DNA of 64,000 nt from Chlorobium sp. (GTDB lineage Bacteria > Bacteroidota > Chlorobiia > Chlorobiales > Chlorobiaceae). The position numbers and the translations under genes are program-made. Each line of letters begins with the position of its first letter. Within the stretch, counting starts at the first letter, position 1. Of the stretch, positions 39,219 through 46,599 are shown one piece after another. The stretch lies in the NCBI GenBank assembly GCA_005862285.1, contig SZXW01000002.1, forward strand, positions 1 to 64,000. Direction: 5' to 3'. The notes below the pieces were generated by a model that did not search any database, had not been told where the DNA came from, and saw nothing but the letters and a program-made list of their open reading frames with translations.

Positions 39219-39441
39219 CGTTTCATTTCATTTATAGTGTTTGAAAGAGAGCTCGGCAGTTACCTTGATGTTCTATCACCTGCCGGGCCGCATTCAATAT
39301 CATAGACGTCAAAGGTTTGAAAAACTTGTAGTTACATCGGGAAATATTTCATGTTGAATTGCAATGAACTGCCAGGGCGAAGAGGTGGTTTCTTCTCATA
39401 AGCGCTTGATAATATGGCTCAGACTGAAAAACGGACAAACC

Positions 39442-41985
39442 ATGAAAGCAGCTGAAATGAAGGAAAACCCGGATATAATTTTCTGGGATCTTTCACCGGA
39501 AAACGCCTTTGCGAGGGTTGGGAGCACATTAGAGGGCCTGACAGAAAAAGCATCATGTGAGCGTTTGAAAGATCAGGGGGCGAATACGCTGAAAGGAAAG
39601 GAGAAAACCTCTTCATTCATGCTTTTTCTCCTCCAGTTCAAAAGCCCGATAACGATGCTGCTTGTTGCCGCTTCGCTGCTTTCGTTCGCACTCAATGACA
39701 GAACCGATGCGACGATCATCCTTTTTATCGTGCTTGTCAGCGCTCTGCTCGGCTGGTGGCAGGAAAAAGGAGCCGCCAATGCGATCGAGCAGCTGATGAA
39801 AATGGTGCAGATCAACTGCAGGGTAATCCGGGACGGCGAGGAACGGAATGTCCATGTTGAAGACATCGTGAGCGGGGATGTTGTTCTGCTTGCAGCGGGA
39901 GATCTGATCCCCGGTGACAGCCTGATTCTCGAGTCAAAAGAGCTGTTTGTCGATGAAGCGGTTTTTACCGGTGAAACGTTTCCGGTCGAAAAAAACACAG
40001 GAGTTCTTCCCGGGAATACTCCGCTTGCGAAACGCAGCAATACTCTCTTTATGGGATCGCACGTCATCAGCGGCAAGGCGAAAGCTCTTGTAATGAGAAC
40101 GGCAAGGCAGTCAGAATTTGGAAAGATATCTGAAAGCCTGAGGCTCCGTGCGCCCGAAACCGATTTCGAGAAAGGAGTGCGCCGGTTCGGGTATATGCTG
40201 ATGGAAATTACCCTGCTGCTCATGATCGTGATTTTTGCTGTCAATGTTTTCCTGCAAAAGCCGATACTCGATTCATTCCTGTTTTCTCTTGCCCTCGCTG
40301 TCGGGTTGACACCTCAGCTTCTTCCTGCAATCATTACGGTCAATCTTGCATCCGGCGCCAGGAGAATGGCCGGGAAGCAGGTTATTGTCAAACGCCTCTC
40401 CTCCATAGAGAATTTCGGAAGCATGAACATTCTCTGTTCGGACAAGACCGGCACCATTACCGAAGGAAAAGTAAAACTGCATTCGGCATGTTCAGTCTCC
40501 GGCAAATTATCGGTGAAGGTGCTGGAGTATGCCTGGCTCAATGCAAGCATGCAGCAGGGTTTCCGAAACCCGATTGACGATGCGATTATCGAAAACCTTC
40601 CCGGTCACCAGAGTTCTTACGTGATCCAGAGCGAAGTCCCTTATGATTTTATCCGGAAACGTCTTTCTGTGCAGTTGCGCAATGCGGAAGACAATATCGT
40701 TATTACCAAAGGAGCTTTGAAAAATGTGCTCGATGTCTGCACTCTCGTTGAAACAGAGGAAGGAGAAACGGTACAGGTCGGCGAACAGAGGTCACAGATA
40801 CTGGATGAGTATTCCAGGCTCAGCAACGATGGATTGCGTACGCTTGGTATCGCTTATAAAAAAGTTGGTGACCGGGAGAATTTTACCCGTGCTGATGAAC
40901 ACGATATGGTTTTTCTGGGTTTTATCATCTTTTTTGATCCGCCGAAGCAGCATGCCGCCGAAACAATAAGGAACCTGGGAAAACTCGGGGTGGAGTTGAA
41001 AATCATAACCGGCGACAATGCGCTGGTGGCGGAAAACCTCGGACGTCAGATCGGTCTCGACAAACCGGTTGTGCTTTCCGGTGCCGATATGCACCATATG
41101 AACGATGCTGCTCTGATCCAGCAGGCCGGACTCACCGATATTTTTGCCGAGGTTGAACCAAACCAGAAGGAAAGGATCATCCTTGCCCTGAAAAAAGCGG
41201 GGAATGTCGTGGGTTTCATAGGTGACGGCATCAATGACGCATCGGCGCTCCATATTGCGGACGTCGGCATTTCGGTCGATTCAGCGGTCGATGTCGCCAA
41301 GGAAGCGGCCGAGATCATTCTGCTCAATCACGATCTCAAGGTGCTTCTCGACGGCATTGCCGAAGGACGGAAAACCTTTGCCAACACCATGAAATATGTC
41401 TTCATGGCTACGAGCTCCAATTTCGGCAACATGTTCAGCATGGCGGGGGCATCGCTTTTCCTGCCATTCCTGCCATTGCTTCCCAAGCAGATCCTGCTTA
41501 CCAACCTTCTGACCGATTTTCCCGAAACCACGATATCGAGCGATCGCGTCGATGCGGTCAACATCGAGATGCCACACCGCTGGAATATCCATTTCATCAG
41601 GCGTTACATGGTCACTTTCGGCATTCTCAGTTCGGTTTTCGATTATCTCACTTTTGCGGCACTGCTCTTCATCCTGCATGCCGGAGAAAAGGAGTTTCAG
41701 ACGGGCTGGTTTGTCGAGTCCGTTATCTCGGCTTCGATGATCGTGCTGGTTATCCGTACACGCCTTCCGTTCTTCAAAAGCCTGCCCGGCAGATATCTGA
41801 GCATTGCCACGATGCTTGTGGTACTTGCAGTTCTGCTGTTGCCGAATTCACCGTTGGGGCCGATGTTCGGGTTCACACGCCTGCCTGCCGTATTTTACGG
41901 TCTGATGCTTCTGTTTGTTGTTCTTTACATCATATCAGCCGAGTTTACCAAGCGGTTTTTCTACCGCCTGATGTCACCGGATTGA
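39442..41985 (+). CDS. mgtA: MgtA-type P-type ATPase (P3B, Mg2+ import likely)
   Basis: 847-residue P-type ATPase. Actuator loop FTGETFPVEK (176-179), phosphorylation site CSDKTGTITEG with Asp334, nucleotide region VITKGALKNVLDVC and hinge GFIGDGINDASALHIADVGI. The membrane motif VGLTPQLLPAIITVNLA in M4 and the M5-M6 block SNFGNMFSMAGASLFLPFLP resemble MgtA/MgtB, which import Mg2+ from the periplasm. TGET and DKTGTIT are mild variants of TGES and DKTGTLT. Start uncertain: ATG 39364 is in frame, but the added 26 residues look non-conserved. A Mg2+ role fits the Mg2+-sensor gene 3 kb downstream, yet substrate is inferred. Confidence 0.85.
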   Translation: MKAAEMKENPDIIFWDLSPENAFARVGSTLEGLTEKASCERLKDQGANTLKGKEKTSSFMLFLLQFKSPITMLLVAASLLSFALNDRTDATIILFIVLVSALLGWWQEKGAANAIEQLMKMVQINCRVIRDGEERNVHVEDIVSGDVVLLAAGDLIPGDSLILESKELFVDEAVFTGETFPVEKNTGVLPGNTPLAKRSNTLFMGSHVISGKAKALVMRTARQSEFGKISESLRLRAPETDFEKGVRRFGYMLMEITLLLMIVIFAVNVFLQKPILDSFLFSLALAVGLTPQLLPAIITVNLASGARRMAGKQVIVKRLSSIENFGSMNILCSDKTGTITEGKVKLHSACSVSGKLSVKVLEYAWLNASMQQGFRNPIDDAIIENLPGHQSSYVIQSEVPYDFIRKRLSVQLRNAEDNIVITKGALKNVLDVCTLVETEEGETVQVGEQRSQILDEYSRLSNDGLRTLGIAYKKVGDRENFTRADEHDMVFLGFIIFFDPPKQHAAETIRNLGKLGVELKIITGDNALVAENLGRQIGLDKPVVLSGADMHHMNDAALIQQAGLTDIFAEVEPNQKERIILALKKAGNVVGFIGDGINDASALHIADVGISVDSAVDVAKEAAEIILLNHDLKVLLDGIAEGRKTFANTMKYVFMATSSNFGNMFSMAGASLFLPFLPLLPKQILLTNLLTDFPETTISSDRVDAVNIEMPHRWNIHFIRRYMVTFGILSSVFDYLTFAALLFILHAGEKEFQTGWFVESVISASMIVLVIRTRLPFFKSLPGRYLSIATMLVVLAVLLLPNSPLGPMFGFTRLPAVFYGLMLLFVVLYIISAEFTKRFFYRLMSPD

Positions 41986-43099: not shown

Positions 43100-44368
43100 A
43101 TGGATTTTTTTTCCGTCATATACTACCGGATTAAAAAAATCTGGAAAGCAATCAGGCTTTACCTGGTAATTGCCGGACCGGGGCTTGTCGTGATGATCGC
43201 AGACAATGATGCCGGTGGAATTACCACCTATGCCGCAACCGGTGCAAAATACGGTTATCACCTGATTTGGTTTCTTCTTCTGCTTATTCCAGTTGCATAC
43301 TATGTCCAGGAGATGACTGTCAGGCTTGGAGCAGTAACCAAGCGGGGTCATGCCGAGGCTATTTTTGAAAGTTTCGGGGCTTTCTGGGGCTGGTTTTCCC
43401 TGCTCGATCTCATGATTGTCGACTGGCTGACGCTGGTTACGGAATTTGTCGGCATGACCGCAGCATTGAACATTTTCGGTGTTCCTTCCTGGCTGACCGT
43501 TGTGCTTGTCATCGTGCTCATGGGAATCATCATGCTGAACGGCCGCTACTGGACTTGGGAAAAAATCGCGCTTGGATTCTGCCTTCTCAACCTGATTTAT
43601 GTTCCTGCGGCGTTCATGGTCAACCCTTCGATTTCCGATATCATCCATCAGGGACTGATACCCAACCTTCCAGGGGGACTTACCAACGAACTGTTTTTTC
43701 TGCTCATGGCCAATATCGGCACCACCATAGCTCCGTGGATGCTGTTTTTCCAGCAGAGCTCGGTTGTCGACAAGGGATTGCTCGAAAAAGATATCAAGAT
43801 GGGCAAAATCGATACCTTTATCGGCTCGATCATCACGGTTGCCATTGCGGTTTTCATCGTGATCGTGACGGGGACCCTCCTGAACGGTTCACCTATCGAT
43901 GACGCTGCAACGGCTGCGAAGATGCTCATGAGTATAAACCATTATACGGGAGCGTTTCTTGCAATCGGGCTGTTCGATGCAGGACTTCTCGGGGCGATCT
44001 GCATATCGCTTGCAAGTTCCTGGGCTTTCGGCGAGATTTTCGGCTGGGCGCATTCGCTCAATACCAAGGTGAAGGAAGCCCCCTGGTTTTACATATCGTT
44101 TTTCTTTACACTCGCTACAGCAGGGGTCGTTCCCCTCATTCCGGGAGCACCGCTTGTCATCATTACGCTTTTTGTCCAGGTCATCGCGGTAACCCTGCTT
44201 CCGGCGGCACTGGTATTTCTCATCCTGCTCCTGAACGACAGGAAGACAATGGGGGAATATGCCAATACCCGGACGCAGAATATTGTCAGTACGGTGATCG
44301 TTGTTGCCATCATCATTCTTTCGACGATGTACGGCATCAGCGCACTTTTTCCAAATCTTTTCCAGTAG
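43100..44368 (+). CDS. Nramp-related divalent cation transporter with altered metal site
   Basis: 422-residue multi-helix SLC11/Nramp-family carrier. Alignment of the GPG-x8-DPGN element gives DAGG (37-40) within IADNDAGGITTYAATGA, so the Pro and Asn of DPGN are gone. In helix 6 the usual IGATVMPH is IGTTIAPW (206-213): the Met that selects Mn2+/Fe2+ is Ala211 and the His is Trp213. Loss of that Met is a mark of Nramp-related Mg2+ transporters. With an MgtE_N/CBS gene downstream, Mg2+ transport is the favoured inference, not shown. It heads a three-gene unit; the next gene begins 16 nt later behind a strong GGAGGT. Confidence 0.82.
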   Translation: MDFFSVIYYRIKKIWKAIRLYLVIAGPGLVVMIADNDAGGITTYAATGAKYGYHLIWFLLLLIPVAYYVQEMTVRLGAVTKRGHAEAIFESFGAFWGWFSLLDLMIVDWLTLVTEFVGMTAALNIFGVPSWLTVVLVIVLMGIIMLNGRYWTWEKIALGFCLLNLIYVPAAFMVNPSISDIIHQGLIPNLPGGLTNELFFLLMANIGTTIAPWMLFFQQSSVVDKGLLEKDIKMGKIDTFIGSIITVAIAVFIVIVTGTLLNGSPIDDAATAAKMLMSINHYTGAFLAIGLFDAGLLGAICISLASSWAFGEIFGWAHSLNTKVKEAPWFYISFFFTLATAGVVPLIPGAPLVIITLFVQVIAVTLLPAALVFLILLLNDRKTMGEYANTRTQNIVSTVIVVAIIILSTMYGISALFPNLFQ

Positions 44369-44384
44369 GCGGAGGTAAGACAGC

Positions 44385-44561
44385 ATGAGGATGTTCAGGC
44401 AGTTTGTCGGCAAGATCCGCGAGATCAACAGCAAGTATGCGAACCCGAAAGTGGTGATGTCCCGAAGTGTCAGCATTTCATTGGCGGCACTCAGGATTTA
44501 CCTGTTCCTGCTGGTGATATTGATGCTGTACAAATTAATGACGGTAATCAAGGTATTCTAA
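44385..44561 (+). CDS. 58-residue membrane protein between transporter and Mg2+ sensor
   Basis: A 58-codon frame from ATG 44385 to TAA 44561, preceded by GGAGGT (44372-44377) at ideal spacing, the strongest ribosome-binding site of the unit. The first 27 residues are basic and polar (MRMFRQFVGKIREINSKYAN); one hydrophobic helix follows (LRIYLFLLVILMLYKL), ending in MTVIKVF. The inside-positive charge predicts a cytoplasmic N-terminus. No family recognised. Its place suggests a small accessory subunit or regulator of the Nramp-related transporter, comparable in size to known small membrane regulators such as MgtS, without claiming homology. Confidence 0.78.
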   Translation: MRMFRQFVGKIREINSKYANPKVVMSRSVSISLAALRIYLFLLVILMLYKLMTVIKVF

Positions 44562-44572
44562 ACGGGGGCGTT

Positions 44573-45823
44573 ATGGTTACGGTTCTGGAACATGAATTTT
44601 TTCTCACTGAAATCATCGGGCGCAGGGTTTACCTGAAATCACAATCGATCGGTAAACTGAAGGATATCGTCATTCAGGAGATTCCCGGAAAAATTCCTGA
44701 AGTTACCCACTTGCTGGTTCACCGTCCCTATGGCGACAGTGCACTTCTTATTCCCTGGGATAAAACCGCGATGATTTCCAACACCGAGATTGTCGCCGAT
44801 ATCGAGAATATCGCCGGTTTTGAGCTGAACCCGCTCGAAAGCCATATTTTTCTCAAAGACTATATCCTCGACAAGAAAATCCTCGATATGGACGGTCATG
44901 AAGTAGAGGTTGTCTATGATGTGAAGCTGATGTTCCAGAACGACCGGCTCTTTGTCAGTGAGGTGGATTTCAACCGTTTCCGCATTCTCAGGCGCATGGG
45001 ATTCAAAAAGCTTGCAAGCTACCTTGCCCGGTACAAGGAGGAATCCAGCATATCATGGCTCTATGTCCAGCCGCTGCCGGAAACAATCAGCAGTTTCAAG
45101 GGGAACGTCAGGCTCAATGTGTTGAAAGAAAACATTAACGATATCCATCCGGTCGATCTTGCCGATATTCTCGAAGAACTGGACGGTAATCAGCGAATGG
45201 CGCTTTTTAACGAACTCGAACCCGAGCTCGCTTCGGACACACTGGAAGAGGTCGAGCCAAGGGTCCAGCGCGAGCTGATCAGATCGATGGAAAAAGAAAA
45301 GGCCGCTGAACTGATCAATGAAATGAGCCCGGCCCAGGCGGCTGAAATCCTTTCTGTGCTTCCGGCTTCGGAAGCGGACGAGATCATCGAATATGTGGAT
45401 ATCGAAAGCAAGGAAAGGGTCCAGCAGATCATCGAGCATAACGATGAAAATATCATGCTCTATGCCACACAGAACGTTATCAGAAGGCCCGGCAGCACAC
45501 TGGCGAAGGATGTTATCGATAACTACCGGGAAATAGCTGCCGACATGGATGTCATCATGTATGTCTATGTTACGGACCCGGACAATGTGCTTCAGGGGGT
45601 TGTCGACATCCGGGAACTGATTTCAGCGGATAAAACGCAAACCCTCGGCGATATCATGACGGACAGCCTTATAACCCTGAATCCTGACGAATCGCTCCAC
45701 GATGCGGTCGACATGTTTACCCGCTATTCGTTCAGGGCCATTCCAGTCACGGACGACAACGAACATCTGCTCGGAGTCGTTTCCTTCCATGACATCAAAG
45801 GCGTCAAGCCGAGACTTGATTGA
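44573..45823 (+). CDS. Soluble PRC-barrel/MgtE_N/CBS protein, likely Mg2+ sensor
   Basis: 416 residues without membrane helices. Domains: an N-terminal PRC-barrel-like part (GRRVYLKSQSIGKLKDIVIQ, again DKKILDMDGHEVEVVYDVKL, residues ~15-165), an MgtE N-domain of superhelical repeats (HPVDLADILEELDGNQRMAL to SEADEIIEYVDIE, ~195-285) and a CBS pair (~290-416, TLGDIMTDSLITLNPDESLH and FRAIPVTDDNEHLLGVVSFH). These are the cytosolic Mg2+-sensing parts of MgtE, but the MgtE transmembrane channel is absent. It starts 11 nt after the small membrane protein gene, behind GGGGG. A regulatory partner of the Nramp-related carrier is the natural inference. Confidence 0.85.
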   Translation: MVTVLEHEFFLTEIIGRRVYLKSQSIGKLKDIVIQEIPGKIPEVTHLLVHRPYGDSALLIPWDKTAMISNTEIVADIENIAGFELNPLESHIFLKDYILDKKILDMDGHEVEVVYDVKLMFQNDRLFVSEVDFNRFRILRRMGFKKLASYLARYKEESSISWLYVQPLPETISSFKGNVRLNVLKENINDIHPVDLADILEELDGNQRMALFNELEPELASDTLEEVEPRVQRELIRSMEKEKAAELINEMSPAQAAEILSVLPASEADEIIEYVDIESKERVQQIIEHNDENIMLYATQNVIRRPGSTLAKDVIDNYREIAADMDVIMYVYVTDPDNVLQGVVDIRELISADKTQTLGDIMTDSLITLNPDESLHDAVDMFTRYSFRAIPVTDDNEHLLGVVSFHDIKGVKPRLD

Positions 45824-45837
45824 TATGCAAAAGGTCA

Positions 45838-45874
45838 TAAAAAAGCGGAAGGAATGATTCCCTCCGCTTTTTTA
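45838..45874. terminator. Bidirectional rho-independent terminator
   Basis: AAAAAAGCGGA pairs with TCCGCTTTTTT, the stem being closed by AGG/CCC around AATGATT. An A run on one side and a T run on the other serve both the MgtE_N/CBS gene (+) and the cytochrome gene (-), which converge here. Confidence 0.88.
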
Positions 45875-46229: not shown

Positions 46230-46434
46230 TGGTTGATCTCCTTTGATTGTTGTATGTGTTGTATGTTGGTGTGTAAAACGTTTTATCGAACGTCGACAGC
46301 CCTGATGTTAACATTTTAATGCAATCAATCCAAACCGCATCACGGCACCCAGCCCGGACAGTGAAGTTACAGGAACAGGTACGGCTCGTATCAGGGAGAT
46401 AAAAAAGTGAGTTATCCGGTCACTCCCTTTTTTA

Positions 46435-46576
46435 GGGCACCTCTACTTATTTGTTCTGAAGCCCTATTGCTGCGTTGGGCGGTGCTCGAAATCCTCATGT
46501 ACTACGTGTACACTCCGGTTTCTCCTCTCCGTCCGCCTTGCACTCGTGCTTCTCACGACAATAAATAGAGGTGCCC
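46435..46576. repeat. Dispersed repeat, copy 2 (142 bp, terminal inverted repeats)
   Basis: Begins GGGCACCTCTACTTATT and ends AATAAATAGAGGTGCCC. Shares GAAGCCCTATTGCTGCGTTG, GAAATCCTCAT, ACTCCGGTTT and the GTGCTTCTCAC-GACAATAAAT end with copy 1 (27008-27183), but is 34 bp shorter and has its own central palindrome (ATGTACTACGTGTACA). It lies between the two cytochrome genes, 23 nt from the stop of the second. Confidence 0.86.
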
Positions 46577-46599
46577 TTTATCTGAAAAAAAAACGGAGC

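Follow-up and report, generated by a model that had tools for sequence, protein, structure and literature searches.

A 58-residue single-helix protein as a probable second subunit in one branch of Nramp-like transporters

Carriers with the Nramp fold are regarded as working as single chains. In a Chlorobium sp. genome, the gene for one such carrier is followed by an open reading frame (ORF) of 58 residues (44385..44561, forward strand, ATG to TAA) and then by the gene for a soluble protein that is likely the cytoplasmic metal sensor of the operon. This arrangement, contained in a 64,000-nt stretch of DNA that was analysed as a whole (the window), raises two questions: is the short ORF a gene and, if so, which of its neighbours does the product serve? 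A sequence-only reading had proposed an overlooked membrane protein, either a small subunit linking the carrier to the sensor or a regulator of stability.

The 58-residue frame and its operon

The first gene of the operon (43100..44368, forward strand) encodes a 422-residue Nramp-like transporter, recognized by PF01566 (258.6 bits), by an AF2 model and by motif. It scores far below the NCBIfam MntH/Nramp cut-offs, and its site motif, ADNDAGG in helix 1 (DAGG, a DxxG element) with GTTIAPW in helix 6 (TTIA, a TxxA element), fits the NRMT motif of PMC8806188; D37, G40 and T208 are invariant among 34 relatives. The best PDB matches of the AF2 model are the EleNRMT structures 7qia and 7qji (TM 0.83-0.88), as is characteristic of the NRMT fold. 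On our carrier tree the protein is not grouped with EleNRMT, which falls in the sister clade, and the window carrier is therefore named NRMT-like. Its branch is possibly the 'orphan outgroup' of PMC9606685 and PMC10606218.

The third gene (44573..45823, forward strand) encodes a protein with MgtE_N (PF03448, 83.7 bits), CBS (PF00571, 59.2 bits) and PRC-barrel (PF05239, 27.6 bits) domains. The MgtE_N and CBS domains are shared with the MgtE magnesium channel, but the transmembrane domain of MgtE is not encoded here: Pfam detects no membrane domain, and the TIGR00400 score (116.5) falls below its cut-off of 232.75. A terminator-like hairpin (45848..45865, strand unassigned; reported on the - strand by a pattern scan and a consensus match only) lies between the operon and a convergent cytochrome c gene. 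Beyond it, between two cytochrome c genes, lies an element of about 150 bp (46430-46582) with inverted ends GGGCACCTCTA ... TAGAGGTGCCC; this MITE-like repeat matches 17 sites in the genome, roughly half of which are 90-97% identical. On the other flank, 1.1 kb upstream of the operon, is a magnesium-type P-type ATPase gene (MgtA; 39364-41985, TIGR01524 above cut-off), with an oppositely oriented isochorismatase-family gene between it and the operon.

The 58-residue frame begins 16 nt past the transporter stop and ends 11 nt ahead of the next start, a close fit between co-directional genes, as the sequence-only reading had stated. Its Shine-Dalgarno sequence, GGAGGT (44371..44376, forward strand), was also read correctly, except that the spacer to the ATG measures 8 nt rather than the 7 nt claimed. 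With a predicted anti-SD pairing energy of -10.9 kcal/mol, where the transporter gene has -3.3 and the gene downstream has -8.6, this is indeed the strongest ribosome-binding site of the unit, and GGAGG occurs 5-13 nt upstream of only 2 of the 194 ATG ORFs of 40-80 residues across the window. The predicted product has the size and form of a small transporter subunit, with fewer than about 60 residues and a single transmembrane helix, judging by hydropathy, charge and the AF2 helix of a homologue. The most hydrophobic stretch of 17 residues (31-47) has a net charge of +6 on its N-terminal side and +2 on its C-terminal side, which bears out the single helix and basic N-terminus proposed earlier.

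A homologue (E < 1e-15) is carried by 24 of the 61 Chlorobia-class genomes sampled, and a close MgtE_N homologue was found in the same 24; neither gene occurs alone, aside from one assembly (G019) in which the MgtE_N gene survives as a contig-edge fragment and the small gene is absent. All 25 homologous copies keep the frame open and share its start codon, and a core common to two genera reads QFxxKIREIN-RYAKPKVEMSxxVKxSLxxLRxYLFxLVxLMxYKF. Variation is concentrated at third codon positions (0.28, against 0.12 and 0.06), and the median pN/pS is 0.22 in frame, while the other two frames give 1.28 and 1.83. The 58-residue reading frame is under purifying selection. Two outcomes had been named as fatal to the sequence-only reading, loss of the frame in relatives that keep the flanking genes and a lack of codon-level constraint; given the conservation of the frame and the pN/pS of 0.22, neither is the case.

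A chance ORF, or an artefact of reading raw sequence, would agree with the small size and with two plasmid records, from Citrobacter and Serratia, in which the PLSDB gene table (known to be incomplete) lists no CDS within the 193-nt gap that holds the small gene. Conservation, codon constraint and phyletic spread contradict this explanation and leave it a negligible probability. The ORF is a real gene, missed by standard gene finding, and the description of an overlooked small membrane protein stands.

Distribution, gene order and natural fusions

Beyond the Chlorobia, the first matches were weak ones in two Bacteroidota genomes, where the gene lies downstream of the MgtE_N gene, in a different gene order. 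A broader survey used the carrier as query with one genome per species. The loci taken were the best-scoring 80 of 481 matches (66-100% identity to the query), so the sample leans towards the query's close relatives; several loci come from metagenome-assembled genomes, and Actinomycetota and Bacillota were sampled through plasmids only. The phyla covered are Bacteroidota, Acidobacteriota, Thermodesulfobacteriota, Myxococcota, Planctomycetota, Gemmatimonadota, Verrucomicrobiota, Methylomirabilota, Sumerlaeota, Hydrogenedentes, Eisenbacteria and others. Once the six loci cut by contig ends are left out, a homologue of the small protein is present in 74 of 74 complete transporter plus MgtE_N loci from more than 10 phyla, always within these best 80 of 481 matches. 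The copies are mostly 36-40 residues long, with a few of 55-66 (full range 36-66, exceeded in clade II), the Chlorobium type being longer by about 20 N-terminal residues. In an alignment of 102 members (free, clade-II and fused), one Leu and one Tyr never vary (L-R-x-Y-L) and the helix closes with a K/R-F pair, giving the signature L-x-x-L-R-x-Y-L ... [KR]-F.

Three ARRANGEMENTS of the small protein are found. It is encoded between carrier and MgtE_N protein in Chlorobia, in one Acidobacterium (L187) and on IncHI-type conjugative plasmids of Citrobacter and Serratia. In most phyla it follows the MgtE_N gene as the last of three genes, usually no more than 45 nt past the stop of that gene. In the third arrangement, seen on Acidithiobacillus and Acidiphilium plasmids and in several Acidobacteria, no MgtE_N gene is nearby and a small-type gene directly follows the carrier; here the protein reaches up to 98 residues, with the same helix at its end. 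Loci that hold the small protein with no sensor gene nearby are L161, L162, L188-L191, L206-L209 and L167. The last of these is a viral-classed contig of putative viral origin (IMGVR_UViG_3300027896_002037) that encodes carrier and small protein and has no MgtE_N gene; no fused NRMT was found in viral contigs.

The Citrobacter plasmid pPSV (L159) and the Serratia plasmid (L160) carry the whole carrier-small-MgtE_N module, with a carrier 78% identical to that of Chlorobium, near transposase genes, an ArsR-type regulator and a P-type ATPase. These conjugative IncHI-type plasmids suggest that the module has moved by horizontal transfer. No match to the Citrobacter module was found in E. coli genomes.

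In four plasmid-borne transporters, from Rhodococcus, Alicyclobacillus, Burkholderia and Streptantibioticus, the carrier C-terminus runs on into one extra helix, which closes with an Arg-rich stretch, and then into sequence of the small-protein type. Aligned to the small-protein profile, the fused tail obtains an hhalign score of 41.5 over some 35 membrane-rich columns, whereas windows clear of the tail region reach at most 13.5, so that the tail, judged by this homology, is a natural fusion of the small protein to its transporter.

The variety of gene orders also bears on the proposal that the ORF is a translational-coupling or leader peptide that merely sets expression of the next gene. A short frame, 11-16 nt from both neighbours and with a strong ribosome-binding site, is what such a role would lead one to expect; however, the small gene is the last of three in most phyla, its amino-acid sequence is conserved and elsewhere it continues the transporter frame as a fusion, which makes a leader peptide highly improbable.

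The carrier or the sensor as partner

On a 74-row carrier tree, all rows that have the small protein, whether free or fused, group in one clade with support of 100; the rows without it are those of the sister clade, to which EleNRMT belongs, and the two MntH-type outgroups. The tree is the product of a quick search with SH-aLRT support only, and the placement of its root is weak. In the sister clade (clade III), the small protein is present in none of 17 members on the tree and in none of 18 in a held-out set; in that held-out sample, drawn from two other phyla, it is present in 2 of 2 members of the clade. The profiles behind the tree-wide and held-out presence calls were partly trained on the 80-locus set, and the cleaner tests are the held-out sample and a profile built from Chlorobia plus two Bacteroidota sequences (identical to L076 and L082). 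The NRMT-like carriers of the sister-clade loci (L210-L245 except L226 and L227) are widespread; most have an MgtE_N gene, either upstream or divergent, and the small protein is absent from these loci.

The small protein is thus co-inherited with one transporter. Since it is kept where no sensor gene is nearby, and is missing where the sister clade keeps a sensor, it tracks the carrier and not the sensor: it is independent of the MgtE_N protein and follows one transporter branch through three gene arrangements. Nor is a small helix a general need of NRMT-type carriers, as the clade-III sensor loci do without it. Fusion and co-occurrence denote functional linkage and do not in themselves imply physical contact.

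Had the basic N-terminus served to dock the PRC/MgtE_N/CBS sensor at the membrane, coupling it to the carrier, the position of the gene between carrier and sensor in Chlorobia, or directly past the sensor elsewhere, would be readily explained, as would the basic, predicted cytoplasmic N-terminus itself. Retention of the small protein beside carriers that lack an adjoining sensor gene, its fusion into the carrier elsewhere and its absence beside the sister-clade sensors (0/17 and 0/18) all speak against such a coupler. A weak negative comes from the AF2 model of a read-through of sensor and small protein at one locus (L113), in which the small part is a lone confident helix of 28 residues behind a linker of pLDDT < 50, with no confident contact. 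We consider a coupler very unlikely, although in clade I sensor coupling may have arisen as a derived function. The earlier proposal of a small subunit linking carrier to sensor therefore survives in one half: the 58-residue protein is very probably a subunit of the carrier, as judged from its co-inheritance and fusions, and the link to the sensor is not supported.

The other earlier suggestion, a regulator of transporter lifetime, would have the small protein bind transiently and either shield the carrier from a membrane protease (FtsH, for instance) or deliver it to one. MgtS, MgtR and MgtU, the models for this behaviour, have a narrow distribution and evolve apart from their targets, and we know of no fusions of them. 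They resemble the present protein in size, single helix and co-expression, and as small membrane proteins acting on Mg2+ transporters (PMC10710835), but unlike it they have P-type ATPases or PitA as targets and affect proteolysis. The presence of the small protein in every complete clade locus sampled, and its covalent fusion in one lineage, fit a fixed stoichiometric part better, and we regard a lifetime regulator as unlikely.

Topology, substrate and relation to known systems

The reading that we prefer, and hold to be likely, is that of a single-helix subunit that would pack, N-terminus in, on the 11-helix Nramp-like carrier and be needed for its assembly, stability or activity. Of 66 short homologues, 50 carry more positive charge on the N side and 7 carry less there, which by the positive-inside rule would place the N-terminus in the cytoplasm, ahead of one membrane helix. 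The fusions would agree: an 11-helix carrier should end outside, the extra helix would return the chain to the inside and the tail would start there, the Arg-rich end of the extra helix likewise arguing that the N side of the fused tail is inside. The helix would then pack against the carrier as a stoichiometric subunit serving assembly, stability or activity, with gating and selectivity among the candidate activities. We infer that the two proteins associate physically, that the N-terminus faces in, that the carrier moves Mg2+ (or Mn2+) and that the subunit affects transport.

An M-box Mg2+ riboswitch lies directly upstream of the transporter at two loci (L094, 4596-4772; L142, 4498-4667), and none was found in the 64,000-nt window. 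Because of these M-boxes and the site motif, Mg2+ is favoured as the substrate of the carrier branch. The metal is nonetheless uncertain, since a related carrier of A. capsulatum moved Mn and not Mg (PMC4072509). A conserved MgtA neighbourhood was considered as further support for Mg2+ and rejected, as no close MgtA was found at the other loci, where the length of flanking sequence differs. In a Syntrophaceae genome (L114, 7818-7880), a fluoride riboswitch is found just downstream of the operon.

By sequence the small protein belongs to no described small-protein family: neither Pfam nor NCBIfam gives a match above cut-off, and the PDB gives no sequence match; the open-access literature searched gave carrier papers only and no description of it. 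The nearest known systems are the NRMT/NrmT carriers (EleNRMT and C. acetobutylicum Ca_c0685; PMC4072509, PMC8806188), which resemble the present operon in carrier fold, in the DxxG-TxxA motif and in including an MgtE_N gene. They differ in that EleNRMT and the operons with MgtE_N first form the sister clade without the small protein. In the searched portions of these two papers, a carrier and an MgtE-like gene are all that is described; most NrmT genes are adjoined by a gene for an MgtE N-domain (PMC4072509), and a third gene beside the pair is not mentioned in that portion of the text.

Small helical transporter subunits are known, although to our knowledge none accompanies an Nramp-fold carrier. 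KdpF of the KdpFABC K+ pump is a single-helix protein of about 30 residues encoded with its transporter. Our protein is like it in the single helix and in co-encoding, but no sequence similarity was found in Pfam or PDB, the partner here is an Nramp/LeuT-fold carrier, and natural carrier fusions exist. AcrZ, likewise a single-helix small protein, which binds the large AcrB pump on its membrane side (PMC10710835, PMC7267776), differs in modulating a drug-efflux RND pump and is unrelated in sequence. The best reading, by analogy, is that the small protein would work like KdpF or AcrZ, with no relatedness to either implied.

Since the small gene stands beside, or is fused in, every complete sampled locus of the branch, a second subunit is probable: these sequences point to an Nramp-type, probably magnesium, transporter branch with a second subunit that has gone unrecognised. 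A bolder version, that the whole branch is obligately heteromeric, with a universal and largely unannotated helix of about 36-60 residues required for the (probably Mg2+) mechanism or selectivity, we put forward only tentatively, as rather less probable than its converse. If it were true, single-chain studies of the branch would have dealt with incomplete transporters. Carriers of this branch expressed alone may miss a part. The split in presence and absence between the sister clades, together with the natural fusions, provides a test bed for the effect of an accessory helix on an Nramp-fold transporter, and the same contrast bears on what the MgtE-like protein next to NrmT does, a long-standing question.
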